DNA from: Onchidella celtica
Taxonomy: Eukaryota > Mollusca > Gastropoda > Systellommatophora > Onchidiidae
DNA length: 64,000 bases
Assembly (NCBI GenBank): GCA_963931925.1
Contig: OZ007570.1
Span: 43,422,187 to 43,486,186 of the forward strand
Reading direction: 5' to 3'
Position numbers and translations under genes: made by a program. The notes beneath the pieces were generated by a model. That model saw only the letters and a list, made by a program, of their open reading frames with translations, was not told the DNA's origin and ran no database searches. Every line of letters begins with the position of its first letter. Positions within the stretch are counted from its first letter, which is position 1. Shown one piece after another: positions 6,450-61,238 of the stretch.

Positions 6450-7150
6450 ATAATTATGGTATGAAAATCATTCTGGCACAGCGCCGGGACCTTGAAGTCA
6501 GCCAGGCTTTCATTACTAAACCAGCACTCATTGGAATGTTTTACATTATTAGCAGCATATAGTTCAAGGGTTCTCGAAACTATGAAGCATTTATCTTGCT
6601 CAAAATAAACTTTTTTTTTTAAGCGGAGGGGGAAGGTGGTGGGGAGGGGGGGGGGGGAATCTACAAATTACAGCATGAACTCTGGAATTAAATAATTAAA
6701 CCAATGGTTTACATCGCGGATTTTCAAGTGTCTGCTGTCGTTTCTATGCGGACGATGTACAAATAAGGTTTCAGATTGCTTGTGCTAAATGCGTACATGT
6801 ACATCTGGTAAGTACACACACTTTGGAAGCCATTGCGTGAATTCGTCTTTGATATCTAGTCGCTGTGATTTTTTTTTTCAGCCTGGGATGAAGGATGTAT
6901 AATAAAGGTTATGCCGATTCGGCACATCGCCGAAATAAATAGTGATACAAGTCTAGGCTTAAACTAATTTAAGAAAAGATGATCTTGTAATTCTCTGTGT
7001 AAGTGTCCCTATCAGGGCGGAACCAGGATGTCGTTTCTTTGCTGAAGAGTTTTTCTGAAAAAAAAAATATTCATTTTGTCAAATCCTTGTTATTGTGTCC
7101 TTGCCCAATATGCGCCCCACCCTGTACACATATGAAATGTACCCCCTTCA
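6450..7150 (+). repeat. Dispersed repeat, copy B, split by an insertion
   Basis: Plus-strand counterpart of the repeat at 4595-4850. The first block (about 6450-6555) and second block (about 7025-7150) are contiguous in copy A but here are separated by about 470 bases (roughly 6556-7024). The insert is non-coding and contains a T run at 6611-6620 and a G-rich run at 6635-6658. No clear target duplication was seen at the break. Confidence 0.65.
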
Positions 7151-7343: not shown

Positions 7344-10300
7344 TCATGACTTATGGCTTCTCATGTGACTGATAAGTCCTATTTTTGCCCTGCAGACCCT
7401 TCCGCATAAATGACAAGAGTGCTCCGTTGGTTCAGTACCACTGGGCCTTTTCTTGCGCCGTTCTCTTTTTTTGATAGCCTGCTGGACTCTGTCAGCTTCC
7501 CATGCTTTGCTGCCTCTGGTAAGGGCCGCCCTCCAATTTGCACGATCAAGCGAGAGCTTTTCCCACTCACTCACATCAATGGCAAAGGCCTTCAGTGATT
7601 GCTTGAGAGTGTCTTTGTAACGTCTCTTTGGGGCCCCAACATTCCTCGTTCCATTGGAGAGCTCAGAGAAGAAGATTTGCTTAGGGAGTCTGGAGTCGGG
7701 CATTCTGACAACATGTCCTGCCCAACGTAGCTGAATTTTTTTCAGGTGGCAGAAGATGCTCAATTCCTTGGCACGATTGAGGACCTCAGTGTCTGGAATT
7801 TTATCCTGCCATTTGATCCTTAGGATCTTTCTAAGGCAGGCCAGATGAAAGTGATTTAGCTTTCTGGCATGCGATTGGTACACTGTCCAGGTTTCAGCCC
7901 CATAGAGTAGGGTGGGAAGGACCACAGCATTGTACACTTTCAGCTTAGTGTCTGTGCGAATGCCGGCAACATCCCATACTCTCTTTCGAAGCCTGCCAAA
8001 TGCAGAGCTGGCTTTGCTGATTCTTGAGAGAATTTCAGTATCAACACGAGCCGCGGAAGACAGTGTACTGCCAAGATAGGTGAAGTTCTCCGACACCTTC
8101 AGAAGACTGTCATGGACTTTGATATTTGGGGTCACAGGATACTTGTCGTCTGGAGTAGGCTGATGGAGCACTTCCGTCTTCTTTGTGCTTATTGTGAGGC
8201 CAACGTTGTCACAGGCACTAGAGAACTTATCAACACAGTTTTGCATGCTATCCTCATCGTGTGCCAGAAGTGCACAATCATCAGCAAATAGTAGGTCACA
8301 GACTTGAGTACTTTTGGTTTTGGTTTTTGCCTGAAGTCTCCTGAGGTTGAATAGACTGCCATCAGTTCGGTACTTGATGCTTACCCCTTGAGGAGGAGAG
8401 CTAAAGGCTTCTTGTAGCATTGCAGAGAACATGATGCTGAACAGAGTTGGGGCTAAGACACAACCCTGTTTTACCCCATTTGTGACAGCAAAGGGCTCTG
8501 AAACACTGCCGTTGCTTTTGACTGCAGCTTGCATGCCATCATGAAACTGGCGCACTATTGTGATGAATTCGGGTGGACACCCAAACTTCGCCAAGATTTT
8601 CCAGAGGCCTTCACGACACACTGTGTCAAATGCTATTGTGAGGTCAACAAATGTGATATACAGCGCTTTATTTTGTTCCATGCATTTTTCCTGAATCTGT
8701 CTGGCAGCAAAAATCATATCCGCCGTTCCCCTCTCTTTACGAAAGCCACATTGGCTCTCGGGAAGCAAGTCATTTGACGAGAGGTGATCAAGAAGGCGAT
8801 TCAGAAGCATTCTTGCCAATATTTTGCCAGCAATTGAAAGTAGAGAGATTCCCCGATGGTTGTCACAGACTTGGCTGTCCCCTTTGTTTTTGTACAGATG
8901 GATGATTGAAGCATCTTTGAAGTCCTGTGGCAGCTTCCCTGCTTTCAACATATGATTGAACAACTCGGTCAACCTTTCAATAAGCTTTTCTCCACCGAAG
9001 GCATACACCTCAGCAGGGATTGAATCCACGCCTGGTGATTTGTTAAAGGACATCTGATTTGTGGCAGTTCGGGTCTCATTTGCTGTGAATGGCTTGGCAA
9101 GATCTGCATTAATGGGAGTCTGAGGGAGGCGGTCAATGGACTCAGTATTTATATTTGATGGCCGATTTAGCACACCTCCGAAATGTTCTGCCCAACGCTG
9201 AATTATGGCATTCAATTCAACAATGCGTGTTGAACCATCTGACGCAAGAAGTGGCGTAGTGCCAGAGCGGGATGGTCCAAACATAGCTCGGAGGCTCTCA
9301 AAGAACTTTCTAGTGTTGTTTGTGTCGGCATATTTCTGAGTTTCTCTTACTCGCTCTTCAAGCCAGTCATTTTTCATTTTCCTCAGCTTCTTCTGGAGTA
9401 CACCCTTACATGCACGCAGTGCATCAGCTTTTGCTGTGGAAGAGGGGTCACTGCAGTGAGCTTGGATGAGACTATTTTTTTCTTTGATGAGCACTTTGAT
9501 TTCATTATCATTATCATTGAACCAGTCCTGGTGCTTGCGGACAGGAAAACCAACTGTGCTGCTGGCGCAAGAGTGTACAGTCGTATTTAGGTCAGTCCAG
9601 CTCTGTTCAATGTTCTCAGGGTCAAAAGTCACGCAATCCAATTTTGAGGAGAGTTCTGATGAGAGCTCGCTCTGTTTCTCAGCTGAGCAGAGTTTTGAAA
9701 CATTTAGGCGTTTAGGTGGCGCTTTCCCGTGAGGGCGTCTATTGCGCCTCAATGTTAGTCTGAGCTTGCAAACAATGAGTCTGTGGTCAGTTCCACACTC
9801 GGCACCACACATCGCCTTTGTTACAAGGACATCCTTTCTGTCAGTCTTCCTCACAATGACATAGTCTATGAGATGCCAATGCTTTGAGCGGGGATGCATC
9901 CATGACGTTCTGTTTCTCACGGGGAGACTAAAATTTGTGTTGGTAATGAACAGGCCAAATTCAGCGCACAAAGTAAGTAAGCGCAACCCATTGTTATTGC
10001 ATGAACCAACTCCATGAGGGCCCAAAACATTTGGCCACGCTGAGATTTCGGAGCCAACCCTAGCATTGAAGTCCCCCAAGAGAATCAGCTTATCAGCTGC
10101 CGGGACAGAGCATATGACAGATTCTCGATCAGAATAGAACTTGTCTTTGGCTTCATCTGGGTTTGTCATGGTGGGCGCATATGCGCTAATGAGGGTGGCT
10201 GACTGGCTTTTCCCAACTGGGATCCTGAGTGTCATTAGCCTGTCATTTATTTCAATTGGCATGGACTGCAAGTTTCTGACAAGGTCATTTTTAATTGCAA

Positions 10301-10574
10301 ACCCAACACCATGCTGTCTCGGTTCGACTGCACCCTTGCCTTTCCAGAAGAAGGTGTATCCACCACTGAGCTCTTTGAGTTGGCCACTATCAGGGAGTCT
10401 GGTCTCACTGAGTGCCACTATGTCCAGGTTGTACCTGCTGAGCTCAATGGCAATAAGTGCAGTGCGTCTTTCCGGGTTGTTTGAGTTGTCCTGTAGTGTG
10501 CGTATATTCCAGGCTCCTAGCCTGAGTAAGCTGAATTTCTTTTTGTTTCGACCCCATTGGTCGCGGTATACCAG
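7344..10574 (-). CDS. LINE ORF2: endonuclease-reverse transcriptase
   Basis: Open frame of about 1,076 codons, starting after a TGA at 10575-10577; no ATG marks the start. Order of parts: an APE-type endonuclease beginning RLGAWNIRTLQ, then ALSETR, LLGDFNARVG, a WMHPRSKHWHLIDY segment and GTDHRLIV; a linker; a reverse transcriptase with TNGVKQGCVLAP and the catalytic LLFADDCALLA; a thumb region with LYGAETWT and LRWAGHVVRM; and a C-terminal CHLCGRVC...SHMRSH finger (C-x2-C...H-x3-H) just before the stop. The enzyme nicks target DNA and primes cDNA synthesis on it in the nucleus. No frameshift or internal stop is seen, so activity cannot be excluded. The short plus-strand frames in this interval are shadows. 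Confidence 0.93.
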   Translation of the reverse strand: MVYRDQWGRNKKKFSLLRLGAWNIRTLQDNSNNPERRTALIAIELSRYNLDIVALSETRLPDSGQLKELSGGYTFFWKGKGAVEPRQHGVGFAIKNDLVRNLQSMPIEINDRLMTLRIPVGKSQSATLISAYAPTMTNPDEAKDKFYSDRESVICSVPAADKLILLGDFNARVGSEISAWPNVLGPHGVGSCNNNGLRLLTLCAEFGLFITNTNFSLPVRNRTSWMHPRSKHWHLIDYVIVRKTDRKDVLVTKAMCGAECGTDHRLIVCKLRLTLRRNRRPHGKAPPKRLNVSKLCSAEKQSELSSELSSKLDCVTFDPENIEQSWTDLNTTVHSCASSTVGFPVRKHQDWFNDNDNEIKVLIKEKNSLIQAHCSDPSSTAKADALRACKGVLQKKLRKMKNDWLEERVRETQKYADTNNTRKFFESLRAMFGPSRSGTTPLLASDGSTRIVELNAIIQRWAEHFGGVLNRPSNINTESIDRLPQTPINADLAKPFTANETRTATNQMSFNKSPGVDSIPAEVYAFGGEKLIERLTELFNHMLKAGKLPQDFKDASIIHLYKNKGDSQVCDNHRGISLLSIAGKILARMLLNRLLDHLSSNDLLPESQCGFRKERGTADMIFAARQIQEKCMEQNKALYITFVDLTIAFDTVCREGLWKILAKFGCPPEFITIVRQFHDGMQAAVKSNGSVSEPFAVTNGVKQGCVLAPTLFSIMFSAMLQEAFSSPPQGVSIKYRTDGSLFNLRRLQAKTKTKSTQVCDLLFADDCALLAHDEDSMQNCVDKFSSACDNVGLTISTKKTEVLHQPTPDDKYPVTPNIKVHDSLLKVSENFTYLGSTLSSAARVDTEILSRISKASSAFGRLRKRVWDVAGIRTDTKLKVYNAVVLPTLLYGAETWTVYQSHARKLNHFHLACLRKILRIKWQDKIPDTEVLNRAKELSIFCHLKKIQLRWAGHVVRMPDSRLPKQIFFSELSNGTRNVGAPKRRYKDTLKQSLKAFAIDVSEWEKLSLDRANWRAALTRGSKAWEADRVQQAIKKRERRKKRPSGTEPTEHSCHLCGRVCRAKIGLISHMRSHKS

Positions 10575-19849: not shown

Positions 19850-22800
19850 TCATACGAATCTGATGTTTGGGACAACAGACTCAGTATGGAGAAGAGATGG
19901 AGCATTTTCATCTGAAAACAAATTCAGAAGAGCCAAATGGCTTTTCATATCTGAGTCTTCATTGGAACACTCCATATTGGACAGTGGAGATGGTGCTGCG
20001 GAGGACGATTCTTTCAGCTCCCACGGAGATGAGGGACAGACAGACATATCACAGTGGTCATCAATGACCGAATCTGGAGAATGCGGAGACTGCTTGTTGT
20101 AATCTGAATGATGTCGGATGATGCCATTGTCTCTCATGTGATCAGAAAGTTCAGCAAGAAAAGACAATTTCAGCTGTGATACATGCAAGTCTTTGTTGTC
20201 CGATTTCAAAATTCCTTCTGTTTTCTGATAGGTGTGGTCATGTGAAAGCAATGGAGATTCAATCAGTTTATTCCTGTTGGTTCCTGCAGCTGAAGTCTCT
20301 GTGAAGTCTTCTAAGTCCATAAATGATTCCAGATCTAACGGTGCTGAATGACACTGACTTGACTTTTCTGAGCAGTCAGAGACATCGTCAGCAATTGGAC
20401 TCATCATACTGTTTTCCTCTCCTCCCTCACCTAATTTTTGTAGATTCTGATTCTCATTGAGCCAGTCGAATAAATCTGCTGCGTTCTTGGTAACATCTTG
20501 TGACATACTATCGTCCATCAAGATATCCAGACATTCATCTGTGATTGGCTGAAACGATGTGTCGACAAACAATGGTGACATGAGTTCTGTGGTTGACGAT
20601 ACATTGAGTGAGCAGTTTGAGCAAACATTGTCCTGTTCATTTTTCACTGTACTTGGACATACCCGTAAGTCTCCCTGATGAGTGCGGTGAGCAGTAGAAT
20701 AAATCACACTGGATACACTGTCAGAGCTGGAGCACGAACACTTCTTGGTGGGTACAGCCTCTATGGGCGGTAAGTCAGATGACAAAAATGAAGGCGTTGG
20801 AAATGTATTTACAGGGGAATGTAGCACCAGTTGCTCCGGGAGACTCACAAGGGGCTGATCTCGTTGAACTGGCTGGAGACCTAACAGTCCCAGAAAGTCT
20901 TCTTTTTGAAGAATAACTGCGCTCGGCCCATCTTCAACAACTGTGTTTGTTTCAAAGTAAGATGAGCTCGGTTTTTCCAACGCTGAATCTATGAAATCCT
21001 GGAAACTATCTTCGATCGTAACGTCGCCGCAAGGGTCAAGGTCATCAAAACAAAAATCAAGATCATCTGTGGACAGAAGAAATAAAGTATGTATTATAAT
21101 GCAAAGTTTATACTGTTTATAAGTTGTATACTATTTGGCTGACTGACATTAATATAATACATGTAATCACACCATTTCCAAACTGAAAGTTTGAAGTGGA
21201 CAATAATAATTTTTAAAAAACACAAAATGAACATTAATACATAAAATATGTATTACCAGAATACCAACTGCCCTGTGTTATTATATCCGTTATCACTTCA
21301 GAGCTTGTGAATGTTTCTAGGGTTAAAACACGTCGCGAATAGCGGTTATGTCCATTACAAGTCCTCGCGGATTTGAGTGACTGTGCAAGTTCCTGTAGGA
21401 CTGAGTGAATGTATGCGAGATACTTAAGTGATATGTGTATGTGTGTGTGTGAGACGGTACGTGCGTGTACAAATGAGAAAATAGTGCAGATCTTTGTCAC
21501 TCCTGTATGACAATTCTAGATGACACAAGGAAACAGACAAACAAACAAACACACAACCCAAAATATTATTATCAAAAAGTAAAATTATTTTAGAATTTCA
21601 AAGCCTAGTGCCCTTTCCATCATGGATTCCCCGACTCACTTTCAGTCCTACTTTTTCCAGTGATCATAAAAGACAAAAATAGTCAACAAAAATGGATGTA
21701 AGGGAGTAAAACAAATCTCAAGAACCTCAAGAACTTAAAATATTTTTTTATTTAAATTAAAAAAAACAAATCCTTTCACAACCCCGTATGTATTTCCAGT
21801 GATTAGTGGGGTGTTCAGGTGGAGTACTTATTAACACCAGAGTGGACGGCTCCATTTTTAATGTTGCCAGACTAAAAGCAAAATCTCGTACAGAGCATAT
21901 TATGTTACAAGAGCTCCTCTTCGCAGATGATGCTGCAATCGTGGCCCACGATGAAACCACGCTCCAGGCTCTCATCAATAGCCTTGCCAAAGCCTGTGAC
22001 AAATTCATGCTAAAGATCAGTGTCTCAAAAACTGTAGTTTTGACACAAGGCTTGAGAAACCCCAACCCAATCATGCTGAATGGCTCTCCTCTGGAGCAAG
22101 TGGGAAAATTCTGCTACCTAGGCTCAACCATCAGTGGTAGCACAGACATAACAACTGAAATAAATGCCAGAATAGGAAAGGCGGCCACAGCTTTTGGCAA
22201 ACTCTCAAAAAGGGTGTGGAACAATAGCAAGCTGACCATCAAAACAAAGGTACTCGTGTACCAAACTTGCGTCCTAAGCACCCTGCTGTATGGCTCAGAG
22301 ACATGGACCACCTACTCCAAACATGAAAGATCCCTCAACTCCTTCCACCTGCGCTGCCTACGCAAAATTCTCAAGATCAAGTGGCAAGACAGGATCTCAA
22401 ATATCGAAGTTCTGAGCCGAGCCAACATTCCATCAACTCAGGCTCTTCTAGGCAAAAAAAGACTGCGGTGGCTTGGACATCTCCACCGTATGGAAAATGA
22501 TCGCATCCCCAGACAAATTCTCTACGGGGAACTTGCTACTGGCAACCGACCCAGAGGTAGGCCACATCTGCGATTCAAAGACACTTGCAAGGTCACGATG
22601 AAAGCATTCAACATCGACCCCAATGAATGGGAGAACCTTGCAAATGATCGAAGCAGATGGAGACAAAAATTGCGCAGTGGCACGCTCGCAATAGACTTCA
22701 AGGCAAAAGAAACATACCTGACAAAACGACAGAGGCGGAATGAAAACACTCGCCAAAGTGAACCCAAAAGACTGACCTGCAATCACTGCCATCGCACTCT

Positions 22801-23425
22801 CGGGTCAAACATTGGTAGAATAAGCCACGAGAGAAGCTGTCAGTCAAAGTGAAAGTGAATATTCTAGCTGCTAAGACCGTCTGTAAAGACGCTAAAGGCC
22901 ATATATAGTGGGAGGTACATCTAAATCCCGAAATCTTGTCAGTTTTGAGGATGCTGGTTTGGAACTGAGAACGATTCCAGATAAGAACTACCGAGACAGA
23001 CATCTCGACAGATGCAATGACCTACCTAAGTCTTGAAGAAAATCCGTATCACACAGATCGTCACTTGTGGCGTTGTCATGGTCAATGGCACAACTACTCA
23101 ACATTGCGTCACTGCCGTGATTGGTCTTTCCTTTAGTTTGCTGCTCAGGCAAATTGCGTGTATTTGTATCGCTGTCTCTTGTGATCGCTGATTTCGCGGC
23201 GTCCACCACTGCCGGCTTCAGGACGTAGTCGTGGTCAAAATAGACTGAAGAAACACTAGATGATTCCCATGAAGAAGTCTGTGACAGTGGCGGTGTTGGC
23301 GGGTGGACAAGTTTCAGAGTGGACGGTGATGAAAACGGTGACTTCAGCAGTGGAGGCGACCGGTGGTTTGAGATGGTCATCATGTCCAGTTGGTCGTAGA
23401 AAGTATTCACCCCAGGCGGAGCCAT
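19850..23425 (-). CDS. Two-exon acidic activator-like nuclear protein, unidentified
   Basis: Exon 1 is 23026-23425 (ATG, 133 codons plus one base) and ends at a consensus donor (CTTAG, then GTAGGT). Exon 2 is 19850-21066, after a clean pyrimidine-rich acceptor ending CCACAG. The phase (1) matches across the junction. The predicted protein has about 538 residues. It has a Pro-rich patch (PPTPPLSQ), then many short acidic-hydrophobic modules: DDLDFCFDDLD, DSFQDFIDSALEK, DFLGLLGL, DECLDILMDD, ADLFDWLNE, LDLESFMDLEDF, LALLNLF. These resemble transactivation segments. No bZIP, bHLH, zinc finger or membrane span is visible, so a DNA-binding exon may lie further downstream, or the protein is a coactivator. 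The frame ends in TGA just after a weak donor-like GTATGA. Splicing is confident; the family is unknown. Confidence 0.78.
21780..22900 (+). mobile_element. 5'-truncated LINE inside the intron
   Basis: Lies wholly inside the intron of the 19850-23425 gene, in the opposite orientation. Only the end of the reverse transcriptase, the thumb, the C-terminal finger and a short 3' region remain, which is the usual 5' truncation of a LINE insertion. It belongs to the same broad group as the full-length LINE at 7207-11282 but is a clearly different family. Borders are approximate and no target duplication was identified. Confidence 0.85.
21806..22852 (+). CDS. LINE reverse transcriptase, C-terminal portion
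   Basis: Open frame of 348 codons. Visible: LLFADDAAIVAHDE (catalytic FADD), a YLGSTISG turn, LLYGSETWTTY, the LRCLRKILKIKWQDRI segment, KRLRWLGHLHRM, and a C-terminal CNHCHRTL...SHERSC finger before the stop. The N-terminal endonuclease and RT palm motifs are missing, so it is non-autonomous. The ATG used is arbitrary because the frame enters from truncated sequence. The absence of internal stops suggests a recent insertion. Confidence 0.85.
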   Translation: MGCSGGVLINTRVDGSIFNVARLKAKSRTEHIMLQELLFADDAAIVAHDETTLQALINSLAKACDKFMLKISVSKTVVLTQGLRNPNPIMLNGSPLEQVGKFCYLGSTISGSTDITTEINARIGKAATAFGKLSKRVWNNSKLTIKTKVLVYQTCVLSTLLYGSETWTTYSKHERSLNSFHLRCLRKILKIKWQDRISNIEVLSRANIPSTQALLGKKRLRWLGHLHRMENDRIPRQILYGELATGNRPRGRPHLRFKDTCKVTMKAFNIDPNEWENLANDRSRWRQKLRSGTLAIDFKAKETYLTKRQRRNENTRQSEPKRLTCNHCHRTLGSNIGRISHERSCQSK

Positions 23426-32289: not shown

Positions 32290-34936
32290 TGGAACTTGCC
32301 TCAGGGTTGATGGAAGATGTTTGAATTTCCTAATACTTCGGTCGTTTTTTGTCGAATTCTTTGATCAGACACACCCCCCCCCCCACACACACACACACTA
32401 AATTCAGGTTTTTGTGTTTTTTTTGAAGTGTGAGAGTTCCCGGTGGCATTGTTGTTGTTGTTGTTGGAACTGACTTTTCATTTTCCAGCCCCTCCTTTTG
32501 TTTCCTAAATTGACAGTGACATTGGGTTGTTAGCCTTGAGGGATCAAGAACTATTATCTGGCCGGTATGATCTCCTTATCCGTGTTACCCAATGACAGGA
32601 CCCCCAGTATTACCGTTGATGTAGGAACACTCTTTTTGAATCTGACCACGAACTGAGTTTCGGGCTATATGCCCACAGAAAGGGCAGCCTGCTATTTAAC
32701 GCATAGGGTTTTGATTATCTAAATGTCAGGTCAAGATGTTTATTCCCTAGCAGGCTTGTTGTCATCGAGTACCAGTACGCGAGGCCTAACCTTTCGCATT
32801 TAGTTCATGGTGCCAAGCCTCCAATTTCTGAACAGTACCTTTGTTTCTCGCCTTGCAATTATAATCTCGAAGATATGCTACAGACTCGTTGCGATAAAAG
32901 TTAGTGCATATCACAGCCCGTAAACCCCCGACTGATGCATTGGCCTACAGCACTTGAAGCAAGCACGAGAAATCCCATTCGTGAATCCTGCTCAGGGTTG
33001 CACCAAACCAGTTTTGTATTCCCTAATGTTTTTAATCCATATGCCCATCTGATGGCACTGACACCAAGTTTAGTTTCTCATGTAACCTCGTTATGTTGCG
33101 GATGGGCGAAAGAAGACCCGGTGAACTGATATCTGAACCCAGTATCTTTAGAAGCATCAATGTCCTATTTTCGTCCGGATGCATGCAAATTATAGTTCAT
33201 CCCTGTCGTTCCCAACGGTTGGCCAAAGACAAATTCAAGGCCTCGCAATGTAGATTTGCCGAATGAGTATTGTTTGAATGCTTGTTTGTTTTGTAACTGC
33301 TCATTAACAACACTATTTGTATTACACTGTTCATGACAGTTACTTAGTTGCAGTCCAAGGTGTGCCATCTTACAAATTTAGGAATCCAGAATCAACTATT
33401 TTCATTTTTAGTTTCGCCTATTAATAATTGTCACGTTGATGTCACTGGGCCCTTTTTGATAAATTACATTCCTCACCCACCCCTCCTCTAGAGTCCACTC
33501 CCCATCTTTCCTTCACTTGTTTCAGTTACAGCGCAATAATACAAAGTTTAGTGGTGACAATGGGAACAAAGCACGGGACACAGGGGTCTGTTCATAAACA
33601 TTTCTTTACCTCTTTTGACATACCTGCGCTACTCTCCGGAACACAAGAAATAAAATATATGGGTATAACCAAAGAATGTAAAAGTTATTCCTACAGTCTT
33701 TGGTATAACTAAGTTAGTGGTCTTGTTCAGAGCTTATGTTCGGCTTCGCTATTTTTTACAGAAACATGGCGTATGACAAAGTAAAAAACTTTTTGCCTCT
33801 GTATAGCCTACTTGTCCACGGCATCCGTTCAGCTCCGCTCCTCGCCGCTTTAGAGGCAAAGAGAGTCTTTCTTATGTTATTTTCCGTTAAAATAGCGGTG
33901 CGGATGCTGTGGACAAGACCACTGATGTAACTTTTAAGAAAATTTGTATAGATCTTCAAAGTGTCTTATGAAATTTGTTTATCATGATGACAAAACCGTT
34001 TAAGATTAGTATTTTGTTTGAAAAAAACAACCCAACAATGCGGGCGAAACAATAATGTAGTCTCCATGATATCGATACCATGTTCATTATTGCACGATCT
34101 GGAAATCCTGCAGAAAGTGGTGTAATCACCCTTAACAATAAATATCTGAGGAAAACAATGTCAGTTACATTGTAAAATAATATCACGACGGCATTAAAGC
34201 CATGACCCGCTATCTATTAACTGTTACTGTTTATTGACTTCCCTAGTTCCCCACAATTTCATTATATGAGCCAGAAAACACCAATGGAAATACCACAGAA
34301 ATAGTTCACAGTGCTGGCCTAATTTCACTTCCAAATTGGACGCCCTCCAAAATACGATTATATTATAAAGAAGACCCGCTCGTTTCAAAGCTGCTGTCTC
34401 ACGTAACAGCAAAAAGTTTGGGTACTGACACAGCGTAATGTATATCTGTCTCACCCCACCACCCCCCACCCCTCCCCTTCTCCATTTTAATTGTCATGCC
34501 AAACCACTTGACATGTGACAGCTGCATGATGGCGCATTTCGCTTTTTTTTTTTTTTTAATTCCATCAACATTGTGGCGGCCTAGCCACGATAACTTAATG
34601 ATATTCATATAGGAATGCATAATATAATACAGACATGTAATTTTTATCTGTCAATTGTGGCACAGAATTCTGGATAATATCACCGCATTTTGTTAACACT
34701 CGGCACAACAGTTACAATTGAAATGTCTAAGTTTCGCTGTTTTTAATTTACTGTCACTTTTGCCGCACTTTTGATCCAAGATAAGATTAACGCACATGTA
34801 ATATAAATATTGCCAAAAAATGGCATAAACGAACTTTTCGAATCCATTATTATCTTACAGACAACAGTGCAGAGGTAGAATCTATTAAAATTATATTTTT
34901 TTTTGATAGAAAGAAAGAGAGACAGAAAGAAAGACA
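32290..34936. other. Non-coding stretch
   Basis: No gene supported. Contains a C/CA run at 32370-32398, a TTG run near 32450-32465 and a T run at 34543-34557. An imperfect hairpin pair lies at 33811-33827 and 33901-33917 (16 of 17 bases pair; core CTTGTCCACGGCATCCG), possibly a small decayed inverted-repeat element. Confidence 0.5.
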
Positions 34937-34939
34937 GAC

Positions 34940-35029
<90 letters not shown>

Positions 35030-35109
35030 CTAGATAGATAGATGGATGGATGGATGGATGGATGGATGGATGGATGGATGGATGGATGGATGGACGAATG
35101 GATGGGTGA

Positions 35110-35178
<69 letters not shown>
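34937..35178. repeat. (GATA)n-(GATG)n-(GATA)n compound microsatellite
   Basis: GATA units to about 35040, then about 14 GATG units, then GATA again. The symmetrical block structure suggests GATG expanded within a GATA tract. Confidence 0.97.
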
Positions 35179-35179
<1 letters not shown>

Positions 35180-35644
35180 GAGTTTGCCATCGAAACTCCC
35201 GGGTAACAGCTGTCAAGTGAATAATATATCAACATTCCCTCATGACTCATAGTAAACAAACCCACGCGATTTCCATGACACCCCCCCCCCCTTCTCTCTC
35301 TCTCTCCCGTTAAGAACCCCAACTTGACAAAACAGAAGAAACAGAACACTAACCGTCATACAATTACAGTTGACTGAACATACAGAATTATAATATGTTT
35401 AAAGTTCAAGGCTTTGGAACAATGGTTATTTAACTGTGAGTCATATACCCGTGTACGACGTGTTAATGGCACGTAATAATATGTCTTACATCATTCAACA
35501 TTTGGAGGGAGGCGGTCACATGACATTATAATAATTATACATGGATCAGAATCAGTATAATATACTACAATAGTCTATCCCTATAGGATACCGGTAACCT
35601 TTGCAACTTCCTTTTAAAATGGGAAACAGAAAAGTAAAATGTAT

Positions 35645-35806
35645 TAGTGGGCTTGCTTATTGGGAAAATACTTCAGTTTGTGATACTAACATGAAACTTG
35701 GTACAAACATTCTCTGCATGGTACTAAGTAAAAAAAAAGGCGTGGGCCAAAAAAATTTTTCATAAAGATGGGAAAAAAATCAAGATGGCCGCCACAGTCA
35801 TATTAT
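35645..35806 (+). repeat. Left terminal inverted repeat of the transposon
   Basis: Pairs with 41170-41341. Shared blocks in order from the tip: the 20-base tip, ATACTTCAG, TTGTGATACTAACATGAAA, GCGTGGGCCAAAAA, CAAGATGGCCGCC and GTCATA. By eye about three quarters of the bases agree, with small gaps. Confidence 0.9.
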
Positions 35807-36121
35807 AATACCTTCATATTTCATATCATAATTAAATGGCTTGAAAATACATTGTACATTCACATTTAGCATATTAAATCAATTCTCAAGACAAAAAGAT
35901 AATCATTTTTTTTAATAGAAAGTATTTTGGTGGGGCTAAATTATATTAAAATCCAAGATGGCCGCCACAAACATAGCTGCTGCTACACTACTCAATGAGT
36001 CATACCAGCAAAAGTTCAGAAGTCTCTATTCTCTATGTCTAGCTGTTTACAAAAAGATGTACAGAATTATCTTTCAATTTATGCTAGTTAAAAGCCTTAA
36101 CATGTATGTTATATATAAACA

Positions 36122-36293
36122 GTGTGTCCATGAAAAGACACTACTACATTGTGACCTATTTTTCTCTATTTATTGATTGTCTCGGTGCAACACATTTGCT
36201 GTAACTGTAATGGACGGTGTATAAGTATTGTTTGATTGGGTCTACTAAAGAGAAAACAGTTCACAGTGTAGTAGTGTCTTTTTACGGACACAC
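36122..36293. repeat. Large hairpin inside the transposon, downstream of the transposase stop
   Basis: Arms of about 50 bases (36122-36173 and about 36243-36293) pair at roughly 80%, including an unbroken AAAAGACACTACTACA segment, around a loop of about 70 bases. It lies between the left terminal repeat and the transposase stop, so it would fall in the 3' UTR of the transposase mRNA. It could be a nested MITE or a structure belonging to the element. Confidence 0.8.
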
Positions 36294-36319
36294 GGCACAA
36301 ACATCATGTAAACATATAC

Positions 36320-36353
<34 letters not shown>

Positions 36354-36365
36354 TCTTTCTTACCA

Positions 36366-39300
36366 TTAACACAAATCACGAAAGCATGAACAGCTACACA
36401 TGGAAGTGCATTGAAGATTTGACTTGACACAAGTACATCTGCCACTGCATTCTTTCTTACAAGAACATTTGCAAAGTTCTTTGCCCACATCTGAAATTGG
36501 GTTTAGACCAGTCCAATGAATGGCCCATGTCCCGTCCACCTTTCTACACCAGCCCCACGATTCTGGAGATGGCAGCTGAGCATCCTGGTCAAGACTTTGT
36601 CCCCAGACAATTCCTCCCTGGTAAGCTGCTCTGCATATCTGCTCTTTTAAAGCTGCCTTTGTTGGGGGTAAAGAGTCAAACTGGATATTCTTGTGCATGA
36701 ATAAATCTTTCCTTGCAGCATCAACACCAGAAGATGAAGCTGACTTGTCGTACAACATAACAACAAACTCTTCTATTTTCTGGATGTCATCTTCTTTCAC
36801 ACTAACTGGGAATTTACTCAGTTTGACAAATGTTTCTGTTACATCCGGAAAAGCATTCCAAATCTGCAGAAAAGACTTCTTCCCTTTTCCTCTGAAGCCA
36901 GACACAGTGTCACATCTGCTAAATGCATGAAAAAAGGAAAAGCCTTTGCACTGCACTGTCCCAAGTTTTTCCGTGAGGTCATGTATTGGGAACCATCTTC
37001 TCTTTGCTCCATTCCCAAAAGAGATCCATAGTTTTTGCAGTCCAATTGCTTTTAGTTCATCAAAACATGATACAGCAATCACAATGACATCTGAGTCATT
37101 TGAGAGAAAACAGGCTGTTGTCGCACAATCATTTTCAATCGCATGCTTCAAGTGAACAAACAGTCTTGTGTCTGCCTCCTCGTGTGAGCATGATATTGTC
37201 GGTCATGCAATCTTGTTGCAGATCGTGCTGTCATCCAAAGTTGCATACACAACTCCATTTTGTATACTGTAAATACTCTTAGCAAGCAATGTAAATAGTT
37301 CAGCTTTGTTGGCATCATTTTTGAGAAAAGTGGGCCAGTTCTTTGGCACTTTGCCTGTTGATGTTACTTTGCGTCTACTTCCCACACCCCGAGACTTTCT
37401 AGTGAAGGTTTTCAGGCTGTCTGACTTGTACTGGTCAAAGACGATATCAACTCTTGTGTGAGACTGGGCAAAACAGGCAATCCTTTTTGCAAAGTCATTG
37501 TCTGCATACTCTCCAAATGTAACATTTGTGGGGCGTAAGGAATATACCAAAGCTGAACCATCTATGAGAAGCTGTTCGCAGTGTGGTTGATTTTGTTCCG
37601 TATCAATGAGCTCTTCTAAAGCATGAATCAAGTCGGCTTTCTGTGTTACATACAGTTCCCCGTTGTTGCTAAGAGCGGGCGGGTAAGGCTGATTTTCGTG
37701 CTTGAAGAACTCATTCAAGTCCAACTGGCGACTTTGACAGATGATGAACAAATTAGCAAAGAGTGCACGATCTTGTTTCACAATTTTATCATCAGATTTG
37801 TGAGTATGCTGGGTAGCTGCATTTGAAAAGAGTACAAACTTGTTCCTCTGAATTGGATCATAAAACTTTTCATGGTTTTTCTTGTATGACTGAAATTGTT
37901 CGTCACCCCTTTGCTTAAAACTGCAGAGACTGTGAGATCCTGATATTAGCTTGGAATCTAGTGTAAGCAGTTCTCCGGATTCTTCTGTGAATGGGTTCCC
38001 GAGTTCTTCAATGCACCTCTCTAGGTTTGTGACTTCTTTATGAAAGCGCTTTTGTGCAGATGGAATGTCCTCGTGGTGCTGTGTTTGTAGTTTCTGCTGA
38101 CTCTTTGATTTCTCTTCATAATCATTCACGAGTTGGCAAATTTCTGGTCCAGATGTCATCCATCTCAGAAGAGCAGTCGGGTTTTCTGTAATCCCTATTG
38201 CTCCCCCATCTGCCTTCACAACAGTATTGTTGTGCTCATGAGCCTGATCAAGTGGCATTCCAGAGAATTCCCTTAGTGACTGATGGAGAACGAAGTGTCT
38301 CTTTTGAAACTCTGCCTCAACATCTCGATGAGACTCATTCAAAGAGAGCATGTCGTGGAGGTGGACTGTCAACCATCTGGAATAGTGAGTATTGTCATTT
38401 GCAAAAAAGTATGGCATCAAGTTTTCAATTGATTTTTTGTATGCGTCAAAATTTCCTTCACGAAATGAACGAACAAATATGAGGAGGGAAAGTTCCAGCT
38501 CAAAAATCATGTACCAGTACATGAAGGTCGGTTGCTCTGCACACTTTGCAGTACACCAATCCTCAAATTCTTTTATGCTTTCTTCCAATTCTTTGTCAAT
38601 GTCATATGCCATTTTTAACAGTTTATAAAGTGCACAAGCACTTATCTGATGAGCTCTTCGGGATTTTGTGATGCTTGCAGCATGTAGAAAAGAGTCTGAT
38701 GTTCCCGCTGTTGCAATCCCTGATTCTTCGATGGCAGTTGTCCAGCCGCCGTCTTTCAAGATGGAGCCAATCATCTTCAAAGTTGCCAACTCAATGTGGA
38801 GACCTCCAAACATAATGACAAAATGTTTATATTCCTCTGGCCATGACCATTGTATTTGCTTACCTAGTGCATATAATGGTTGATCAACTGCGACGACAGT
38901 GGTTTGTGCTGGATTCAATAAAGACACTACATCCTTCACTCTGTCCAGGGCATGCTTTATAGTTGCAACATTGTGTGCCTGGTCCCTTAGAAGTGGTAGA
39001 AGTGTTGATATTCCAACTTGAAAATCAAGTCCTCTCAGCTGAGAGGCGTGATGGGCAGACCACGTTAACTTCACAGAGTCATCAATGCTTTCTGTTATGT
39101 TCACTTTTTCCAGCCACTCGAATTCTTGCCTAAAATAGAATAATGAGGGTCCTGCTGTGAGTGAGTCAGGGTGTCCTGGAGGAGGCAGTGGTCGATTTTT
39201 CATGTTTGCGGGTTTGACGTTTGTAAAGACATCAGGTAAACTGGAGATGTTCTTCACTTTGTCTTTTGTCACTTGAAGTTTCATTTGAGGGCTGTCCTCA

Positions 39301-40805
39301 TTTGGTCTGTGCTGAAAAAGTGAAATGCTTGTTCCGTGGAACGAAGATGTTGCTGTTGTAGCTGTTGGGTTGTGATCTATGTTGTCTATGGCTGCTGACG
39401 TAAAGATTCCTCCTTTCAGCTTTAAAGGGCAAACTAACCCACTGTCTGCATATCTTGATACCACTGATTCTCCCATTGTGTTAGAGATGGTCAAAACTCT
39501 GTCATAAGAAATACTTATACCATTTTCATGAAGAATATTCACAAGACTTTCTTTTCTTGTCTTTGAATACATGGACAATCCTATGTAGACTGGGAATGCT
39601 GTTTCCTTTTCAGCTGAGTGTCTGTGAAACCTGGCATCTTCTTTATATGTTTTGTGGCAGTTGAACTGAAGCAAATGAGATAGAGCAATGTCAGTTTTTG
39701 AAGCACCAAATTCAATTTGAGATTTTATGTCAGGCCCATGAGATAAACTTGAAACAAACTGTGTTAGTTGTCGTGGAACACAAGTGTCAACATATTCTTC
39801 ATCAAAATAGCCAGGAAAACTACTCTTACACTCCAACATTTGTTTTCTTAATATCTGTGCTGCTCTAGCAACTATTATTGCATCCTCATAATCATTTGCT
39901 TTTGACAGCAATGTACCAATGTCCTGTCTGAATGCCAGCATGATGTTTCTGCCTTGCTTATATGCTTCCAGTTCGGGAATATGATGCATCAAACGTTCTT
40001 TCAGTCTAGATGCGTTAACATCTGGTGTCTCCACGCCAAACTGCATGAGCCGTTCCAAGAATATTTGTCGAAGCTCAGCAAGCTTGAATACCTTAGGCTT
40101 ATCTGAAACCACTTGCTGTTCATGGATATACGTAACTAGCTCAGAAAAAGCCAGAGGGTACATTTCAGAATGCAATTGTTGTTCTTCACTAGCTTCTTTG
40201 TCACACAAATGACGTAGAGATCGGAGCCGATTATGGATGGATGCTAGACATTTTTTGTGATACTTCAGTTCTTGTGCAATTGGATCAGCAGTACTTAGAC
40301 TTTTCAACAATTTCACATCATTCAGTTCTGTTGCCATGTCTTTCAAATTAGCACAGGTTTGAAGTGTTTCTAATTGACAGAGATTTGATTGAACATCTTC
40401 TTTTTCACATATGAAGCACAAAATCTGGCCCATTTGTGTGTATTTTCTTTTAACTTTAGGACTGCTATATTCTTCCATTAAATCTTTGCTTGATTTTCTC
40501 TTTTGTGTTTCAGTTTCATGTTTCATCTTTACCCTTTCAAGCTTTGTATCTTTGAAAAGTAACCTACTAGAATCATGATATGCTCCAACATTCTTTCTCA
40601 AAGTCTCTTCAATTCCACTTCCATCATCCAATCTTTCAATGTTTAAAGGTAAAGGCAGAGCCCCCAGGCCATGGAAAATGGGAATATTCTGTACCAGTGT
40701 TCTGTAACCACAATTTGTGGGCTTTCTCAAAGCTTCTTTAGTTTCTTTTTGGCACAAAAAACAAAGTGACCAATCTGTAGGATTATTTGAGCTTGAGCTT
40801 GCCAT
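36366..40805 (-). CDS. Academ-like transposase with FEN1/XPG-like nuclease domain, one in-frame stop
   Basis: A 1,479-codon frame from ATG (40805) to TAA, broken only by TGA at codon 1201 (37203-37205); the frame is unchanged across it. Residue positions: C15-x2-C18; a second zinc motif C130-x2-C133...H183-x2-C186; a central block with AAIDNIDHNP (D474, D477), VVAVDQPLYA (D641) and PLDQAHEHNN (E857), which I read as a possible RNase H-like DDE core; then a FEN1/XPG-like domain with IDGSALVY (D1082), VFDQYKSDSLK (D1124), SCSHEEAD (E1209, E1210, D1212), NDSDV (D1237, D1239) and CDTVSGFRGKGKK (D1299); and a CXC-type cysteine cluster (about 1449-1475). The acidic set matches a two-metal 5' nuclease. 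The stop would delete the nuclease's second half and the CXC tail. CGA-to-TGA by CpG decay is a simple explanation. Confidence 0.9.
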
Positions 40806-41169
40806 TTTTCTGATTCACTTGATGTTCAATTTCATGTAATATTTGAATTGTTCAAGGTTTGTTTGATTCAGTGCATGCGAGTTCATTTTCTCTTTAAATA
40901 GCCTGAAATGAAAAAAAAAAAGTAAGACAAATTAGTATTTCGTTTAAAAATTATTTTTTTTTTTTTGCAAAATGGTTTAGTTTGACCAAAAAAAACAAAA
41001 AAAAGGAAATATTTACCAAACTCTAAAAAATCTTGGTTTTTCATGCAATTAAATGTGGATTGCCCCCTCATAATTGTACAGTGTTCTTTAATATTCATGA
41101 CTCAACTTGTTTTAAACCCATTCATTCAATTTAGGTGCTATACTTTTATTGAAGATGTACAGATTCCTT

Positions 41170-41341
41170 ATTATGACAGTTTCGGCGGCCATCTTGGATT
41201 TTCGGCCGCCATTTTGAAAAAAATTTTTGGCCCACGCTGTTTTTTTCAAATACATCCTATAGACAACATCTGTGCCAAATTTCATGTTAGTATCACAATC
41301 TGAAGTATTGACCCCCATTTACCCAATAAGCAAGCCCACTA
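41170..41341 (-). repeat. Right terminal inverted repeat of the transposon
   Basis: Reverse complement of the left terminal repeat. It also carries the GGCGGCCATCTTG motif at 41184-41196, whose complement occurs at 35781-35793 and again at 35954-35966, giving three sub-terminal copies that could be transposase-binding sites. Confidence 0.9.
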
Positions 41342-43910
41342 TATCCCAGGCACTGCAAAATTCAGCTGTTCCGCCCATCTATTACTATTAAACCACTATA
41401 GATCTCTATATACGGTAGGAAAACTCCTTTGTTATCAACAGGCTCGAACACTATCCATCGGGTCTATCTGGACAAAAACATGACATGATGTAGTGAAATA
41501 GGGTTGCCGACCATTATAGGCGATATAAGATTGAACTCTTAGCTCACGAGTGGGTTTAGGCGACATGATAAATTGATAGTGATACGAAAGGGCGTTCACT
41601 GAACAAAGTTCTCGGTGCGCACTTACTCTTACCACGTAGCTGTTAATATTGGAATTACATGTACTTGTACAATACATGTCTTGTCTTCGCAGTCTGCTCT
41701 GCTTTAGAGACTCCATTCTTTAAAAACACAATTAAACCATTTAACTCCGATTCTTGTGAATGGGTTTCGTACTGTAGTCTTTTCATGAATTAACAATAGT
41801 GTGTGTAGCCTAATTAAATTCTGTTTGAAAGGTACATGGACACTGAATGTTTATGTAGCCTGTACCATGACAAATCTAAGCAAGTGTATGTGATTCCAAC
41901 GCTATTTCTGGCCTATTTGCCGCGGTGGGGCTGACGTTGGTTTGGTTTGTCAAGGATGGACGTTTGATAGTTTGTTTGTTGGTCATCATTGTTTTCTGTC
42001 AATATACATACATTGTATTTCAATGATTTGGTATGCCAATTACTTGGCCCTTAGATTTAGAACATCCAAACTACTAAACTAGGGTCTTATCCGCCTATGG
42101 CGATACCGGTAACTGATAATTCATTGCCCATCCTAAAATCAAATCTTGGATTGTGCATTGTAATTAATTACATTTTGACAGACGCAAAAAGTCGTTAATA
42201 ATAATATCCACCTGTAAATTTCCTAAGCAACCCAAGAGAGGGGGAGTGGAGGGAGAGATGGGTAAGATCGAAAGGAAAGATTAGGCCTATACATATGGTA
42301 AAAACATTAGCCACTTCACATTTCGCGGCAGCTGTTTTTACCACGATAGGTTGAGCGTCACTGATCAGCATTCGGCTCATTGAGAGTCAAAATTAAAGAG
42401 CGCCAGAAAGTATTGTAGTTCGGCGAGATCTGCTGATGCCGTCGTTGTTGCATCTGTGATGGTCATTGATGCTATTTTTTCACTGGTTCGGGTCTAATCG
42501 CGTTATTATAATATTAATCGCAGTCAGTGTTGGGAGTTGCAGACTTCTGGGTAATTATCATATCGGTAGACCCTGCTGTTTATATCATTCTTCCTCAACT
42601 TTCTTTCCGGTACCAAGCAAAGACAACAAGTAGTCCAAACGTTGCAGATGTCGTTCTCTGACGCGACTGTTTCAAGCCTACGTATGGGAAGGATGCCGTT
42701 TCTTACATATGAGTTTGTCATTACATGCAATTTCTCAATTTAAAACTTATTGTTCACTTGATTCAGTCAAGAGTCCTTGGAAACACACATACATAGGTGT
42801 ATAACCAGATTGGTTTCTCACCATGTATAATTTTCTTCTAGAAATGTCATTAACGACCAAAAAAAAAAAAAAAATGCCCACTGGCTCAGCTGGAGTAAAA
42901 CTGACATAATAAAATTGTAGCCTCAACAGTGCCTGCTGCAATTTATTGTGGTAAAAAAAAAATTTATTAAAAATTAAAACATTCAAAACATTATACATGC
43001 CTGTAAATCTGAAGGAAAATACAAATAATGGGAGACCGTTACTTCCATTAGACTGCTCAGTTTCATATGTATTTGTTATGTCGAGAGGTGTCAGCATGTG
43101 CCAACATGCCACCAAAGTTCTCCTCTCCTCCTTTTGTCAACATGAGTAATATAATACATAATTATATACGTCATAGATGTGTCTCTGATTACTCATGTTC
43201 CATCAGCGTAACTTAACAGCTGGCTGTACATGTTCAAACATTAAAATTTGTTGTATAAGCCACATTCCAAATGATATCGATTTGCTCATGGGCTCATATC
43301 ACTGTCCAAGGTGTTTAAATGTACAGCAGCTGTATTGCATTGTGATTTGCACCGTTCTAGTTTTCCTCTCACTCACAGACACAGGAGCCTATGCTTTCTC
43401 GCCGATGTGTTCAAGGCTTATGGACTTAACAGCGAATACTATTTCTTGAATATAAATTGGTTAATAACTCACACCTTAGTATTTTATTATCATACGTTAA
43501 ATTTGTAGGAGTAACAGTGGCATTCGCACAATATCAGACAACAGTCTGGAACCAAATGACAGTTTAACAATAGTGTATCATTGATCTTTGAAGAACATTA
43601 AGAAAAAAATAACAAAAAAAAACAATGTCATATTATGTGAGTACGTCTGTACATGAGCTGTACTCAATCAGTTCTGAAAGTTTGGACTTTACGTCAAGGA
43701 GATAACAGAGAAGGATCACGTCATAATTGTTATCTCCTCGGGGCCAGCAGGGTGAACACGGACATGAAATGAAGTACAATCGCGTGATCCCAGAATTAGG
43801 ACCAAGTCTGGCTGTTCGTGTTAACTGTTATGCGTGATCCAACTTTGTAGTTTGTGCATCTTGGTGAGTTTATGGGACTGGAGTTTAGGTGCCTACTCAG
43901 ATTAACTAAG

Positions 43911-50985: not shown

Positions 50986-61238
<10,253 letters not shown>

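Follow-up and report, generated by a model that had tools for sequence, protein, structure and literature searches.

The transposon described here is very probably a recent insertion, no longer active, of an autonomous cut-and-paste DNA transposon of the Academ type, and most likely of the sub-lineage AcademX, the comparison with Academ and AcademX being by description only. It occupies positions 35645-41341 (5,697 bp, with its gene on the minus strand) of the window, the whole stretch of 64,000 nucleotides from Onchidella celtica that was analyzed (C4:43422187-43486186). The searched genome comprises 1.14 Gb in 43 contigs; it is chromosome-scale and carries many related families. The original prediction of a complete DNA transposon is borne out by copies, ends, duplications and empty sites. 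The element most likely belongs to a kind already known as common in some animal genomes, of which it is a clean example and no surprise.

Ends, copies and target sites

The left end of the element starts with TAGTGGGCTTGCTTATTGGG at 35645 and the inverse of this sequence finishes at 41341 (TAGTGGG...CCCACTA). Complementarity between the ends is 96% in their outermost 25 nt and reaches 83% and 79% in two more stretches. Local alignment of one end against the other gave terminal inverted repeats of 161 nt on the left (35645-35805, plus strand, 3' of the gene) and about 173 nt on the right (41169-41341, minus strand, 5' of the gene), with 74% identity over query positions 1-161, in agreement with the repeats of about 160 bp originally noticed. 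Direct reading of the flanks showed TAT on the left (35642-35644) and again on the right (41342-41344), a 3-bp target site duplication whose pattern is backed by the other copies.

When the genome was searched with the left end, at least 38 matches were returned, the counts in this search being lower bounds. Six near-identical copies contributed 13 of these, comprising both ends of five copies and three pieces of the sixth, and no short derivatives were found among the 13; the 25 others are 69-82% identical and look like the ends of related families. The five full-length copies (that of the window and those at C13:17.81M, C5:42.81M, C1:44.31M and C1:39.14M) share 98.8-99.2% identity across alignments of 5,617-5,686 bases and lie between unrelated flanks. 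The C1:44.31M copy has a private 692-bp insertion, the C1:39.14M copy is without the first two bases at one end, and the sixth copy, at C15:51.48M, is present as pieces scattered over 19 kb. Since the flanks differ among five near-identical copies, similarity stops at the named ends; a stop inside them, which the original prediction gave as a ground for refutation, was not seen. The terminal repeats exceed chance, as the genome has five full-length copies that carry both of them between unrelated flanks.

Duplications of 3-4 bp are present in four of the six copies: TAT in the window (window orientation), TAT at C13 and AGTA at C5 (both read directly, in gene orientation), and ATT at C1:44.31M, which was obtained by comparison with empty sites. 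The C1:39.14M and C15 copies have none. The duplication had originally been given as TAT or TA. The former is favored because the duplications of the other copies are 3-4 bp long and lie outside TAGTGGG/CCCACTA; TA was rejected, as these copies fix the end of the element at TAGTGGG.

The check suggested with the original prediction, a search for further full copies and empty sites, gave four more full-length copies and empty sites for three of them. The C5 and C1:44.31M copies are inserted within dispersed repeats, and for each of the two, 38 of the 41 matches listed are paralogues that span the junction without the element; three were read in detail for each copy. At C5, the empty sites have a single 4-bp stretch (ACCA, ACTA, ACTA) vs AGTA twice in the copy, and at C1:44.31M they identify the target as ATT. 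Two flank paralogues of the C1:39.14M copy are also empty sites, one of which matches DDE_Tnp_1_7, which we take to be of the piggyBac type. Comparison with these sites showed that 22 bp of the target are missing at one junction, at which the element is also without its first two bases, and this loss would explain the absence of a duplication. An empty site for the C13 copy was not found among the matches listed: the 39 others cover the right side, and one of these, at C5:38935691, extends a few bases past the junction, too short to judge. For the window copy, a genome search with its flanks matched only those two flanks themselves. Together, the copies and their empty sites establish a mobile unit with the named ends that duplicates 3-4 bp of its target.

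The right junction of the C1:44.31M copy (L023, C1:44307696-44315275) contains 16 extra bp from position 6981, located between the end of the element and the target copy and consisting of a second CCCACTA, ATT and TAGT. These look like pieces of both junctions and suggest a trace of templated repair. An interrupted excision followed by such repair would fit, as a single case that proves nothing.

Among the related loci, five end pairs were accepted (L027, L028/L029, L032, L034 and L038); L030 and L036 were left out, having a poorly matched second end, and neither has a duplication. Duplications flank four of the five accepted pairs (TGTA, TTAA, TCT and AACT), L034 being without one. L038 (C17:4316300-4323300, with ends at 395 and 6551) represents a distant family with 36% protein identity that shares the end AGTGGGCTTG; its 4-bp duplication, AACT, requires the end to be read as AGTGGG, which has one base less than the end of the window family.

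Two further features of the element are a subterminal motif and a palindrome. The motif CAAGATGGCCGCC occurs near both ends, at 35781-35793 and 35954 on the plus strand and at 41185 on the minus strand, and its core is also present in some related loci. It is possibly a binding site for the transposase, and it resembles a YY1-type site. An internal palindrome of 172 bp (36122-36293; 41-nt arms, 88%) was located downstream of the gene by inverted-repeat search. It was considered as a dispersed MITE, and this was rejected because a genome search (six first-look candidates) gave no occurrence beyond the six copies of the window family.

Other repeats are present in the window outside the transposon. 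Non-LTR retrotransposon frames lie at 7344-10418 (minus strand; RVT_1, 5.4e-36, plus an endonuclease domain) and at 21806-22852 (plus strand; partial RVT_1, 1.3e-5, below its cut-off). A long GATA/GATG simple repeat (34924-35181) is found about 460 bp to the left of the transposon, and a near-perfect inverted repeat with 55-nt arms, 98% complementary and 30 nt apart, occupies 59240-59379.

The encoded protein

The gene is a single transposase-length frame of 1,479 codons (36369-40805, minus strand) with one in-frame TGA at codon 1201 (37203-37205), just as had been noticed originally. Near the N-terminus, the alignment shows Cys/His clusters (CFLC; CFIC ... YHKKC; 40248-40763, minus strand), which are predicted, with some probability, to be a zinc-binding part that contacts DNA. 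A central region (38016-39515, minus strand) has the conserved acidic motifs DNIDH, DQP, GGLHxE, DQxHE and DGGA, and is a putative RNase H-like transposase core. It is followed by a putative XPG/FEN-like nuclease region (36771-37625, minus strand) with the motifs DGS, FDxYKxDSLK, HEEADTR, NDSD and CDxVSxFxGKGK. The translation ends in a cysteine-rich tail (36384-36473, minus strand) in what we take to be a CXC-like pattern.

A genome search with the first 1,200 residues gave at least 41 matches (951 first-look candidates, 39 scored, 41 matches listed). Of those listed, 30 do not belong to the six copies and have identities of 36-75%. The window protein was aligned with the frames of eight relatives. 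Several rows are without one or both ends because single uninterrupted segments were chosen, and at least two (L028 and L042) are out of frame at the 5' edge. The acidic motifs of the nuclease region are invariant and in FEN-like order in all eight sequences aligned there, the window's included, down to 39-45% identity. In FEN1 the metal-binding residues follow one another in this order, and the spacing is roughly similar. In one FEN1 chain, EAEA is found at 158-161 and DMD at 179-181; the remaining metal-binding positions used for the comparison are those that we assume for the enzyme. The XPG/FEN-like assignment is thus suggested by the motif pattern.

Searches of profile libraries gave weak matches at best. 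The window protein had no significant family match in Pfam or NCBIfam, Pfam gave no match to a helicase family, and the nuclease region matched no family in PHROGs. XRN_N was weakly matched by three of the eight sequences of one alignment (A2; best 0.01) and two of the nine of another (A1; best 0.048), and in the one sequence for which the position was shown the match covers the NDSD motif. These matches are no stronger than others presumed to be chance, such as XXXCH_domain of NCBIfam (0.016); a match to Binary_toxB_3 (E 0.036-0.05, below its cut-off) was likewise taken as chance. For the central region, DUF6589 was the best family match; of the eight aligned sequences, one relative matched it, at 5.2e-5 and below the curated cut-off.

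Profile searches of the PDB gave no match for the whole alignment, and one unrelated match (0.85) and no DDE transposase for the central region. With the nuclease region they returned six sequences, comprising YacP twice (0.24) and four unrelated ones (0.4-1.1), with no FEN/XPG among them. YacP is a PIN protein, and its weak match falls on the DGS and FD motifs. A profile of the nuclease region compared with the host FEN1, EXO1 and XPG exons reached a probability of 0.1%, no better than the control. Two single-sequence AlphaFold predictions each had a mean pLDDT of 32.8 and gave no readable fold, and scans of viral contigs yielded nothing useful.

Burst, decay and selection

Comparison of the five full-length copies revealed 132 singleton columns vs three informative ones. 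This star-like pattern points to one recent burst from a common source, with the copies now decaying; the source would lie outside the five. Relative to the majority base, the coding changes among them are 21 synonymous, 79 nonsynonymous and 7 stop (20/74/7%), vs a neutral expectation of 28/69/4% that assumes a fourfold weight for transitions. Coding changes therefore appear in roughly neutral proportions, and each of the five copies is broken by at least one stop or frameshift.

It is conceivable that the window copy is still functional, either by read-through of the TGA or because its two frames are two proteins, and the TGA is indeed the single interruption in 1,479 codons. However, the frame is open at this site in the other four full-length copies, and the TGA sits within the nuclease-like region that relatives keep whole. 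In addition, this copy alone has 21 nonsynonymous vs 3 synonymous changes from the majority base, as expected without selection. A functional window copy is therefore considered very unlikely, and an inactivated one is the preferred reading.

A different picture was obtained between families. The dN/dS of the window protein was 0.12-0.14 vs three sequences at 71-72% protein identity; by protein region, the values vs families at this identity were 0.06-0.24, with 0.09-0.12 for the central region and 0.13 for the nuclease-like region. For three more distant relatives dN/dS was not computable because synonymous sites were saturated. Pairs within three related families gave 1.09, 0.69 and 1.00. 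The low values between families, combined with near-neutral change within them, imply that the protein was selected while the element was moving and that the copies are now unselected. The regional values indicate that this past purifying selection acted on every part of the protein, the nuclease-like region included.

Purifying selection between families would also be expected of a domesticated host gene that happens to have repeats around it. A single-copy gene of that kind is at odds with the at least 41 protein matches listed, 30 of which are outside the six copies, with five near-identical full-length copies that have different flanks and are each broken, and with the existence of empty sites. 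This explanation is regarded as extremely improbable, and a transposon family under selection during its activity as the better account.

Proposed mechanism and comparison with known elements

In the mechanism proposed here, one large protein would bind the ends of about 160 bp through its N-terminal zinc-binding clusters. The RNase H-like core would then excise the element and join it to a staggered cut in the target, which would give the 3-4-bp duplication that is observed. The C-terminal XPG/FEN-like nuclease may help by processing ends or flaps while the element is excised or joined; a role in trimming or resolving branched intermediates at the ends is given a little less than an even chance. 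The family would have expanded in one short burst, after which the five full-length copies decayed without selection. A stronger proposal is that the nuclease is a divergent PIN/XPG-family enzyme obligatory for transposition, because it is about as constrained as the transposase core (dN/dS 0.13 vs 0.09-0.12) and its acidic motifs are invariant. This is viewed as doubtful; were it true, the 16 bp at C1:44.31M would be a trace of cut-and-repair at a transposon end.

For one probable Academ family, the analysis documents a star-like burst and defines the exact ends, target duplications and empty sites. It also shows that, during the activity of related families, selection acted on all parts of the large protein, with no exception for the nuclease-like region. 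This should be useful for transposable element libraries and for the study of a little-studied kind of transposition, and leaves knowledge of the superfamily unchanged.

Academ elements carry an XPG-type nuclease, and AcademH was reportedly first described by Kojima in 2020. A literature search for this nuclease in Academ elements with terminal inverted repeats found nothing on the subject, and the Academ passages of PMC9783078, PMC4746887, PMC9004415, PMC8290104 and PMC4455052 contain no defining features of the proteins. The superfamily was first reported by Kapitonov and Jurka in 2010, as cited in PMC4455052, and one table gives 2,833 and 3,377 copies of Academ-1 in its two column sets (PMC8905726). 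The original prediction held that intact copies are rarely described; this finds no support, a 2023 study of bivalves having listed 100 curated full-length Academ consensus elements with a mean of 5,565 bp (PMC10294476). In the set of that study Academ is third by number among DDE/D superfamilies, and of the molluscs covered there, bivalves are its sole or nearly sole carriers.

Elements of other kinds were also compared. KolobokE, KolobokD and KolobokP resemble the present element in being DNA transposons with a transposase and a nuclease, the latter putative here; however, Kolobok duplications are TTAA-specific and the nucleases are of other types (PMC9587614). Kolobok and piggyBac were rejected, since TTAA specificity does not fit TAT, AGTA and ATT in the window family or TGTA and TCT, beside one TTAA, in its relatives. 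A DNA transposon of another or undescribed superfamily that is Academ-like in size, duplication length and nuclease would be compatible with a comparison made by description alone, and with RNase H and XPG folds that neither profiles nor structures confirmed. It is nonetheless unlikely, as the 3-4-bp duplications, the nuclease-like region and the length of 5.7 kb match what is reported for AcademX and the curated Academ elements. The original Academ label is probable, being consistent with the duplications, the size and the putative nuclease, whose XPG character is read from the motif pattern.

Within the superfamily, AcademX is the closest fit. AcademH has the name of the superfamily in common with it but duplicates 9-10 bp, vs 3-4 bp for AcademX, a difference tied to an encoded helicase vs nuclease (PMC10045372); it was rejected here, as the duplication length is wrong and no helicase was matched in Pfam. 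By their descriptions, size, duplication length and nuclease-like region are consistent with Academ and its sub-lineage AcademX. The present element resembles AcademX, as described, in its 3-4-bp duplications, its inverted repeats and its putative nuclease in place of a helicase, and at 5,697 bp it is close to the mean of the curated bivalve Academ elements (PMC10294476).
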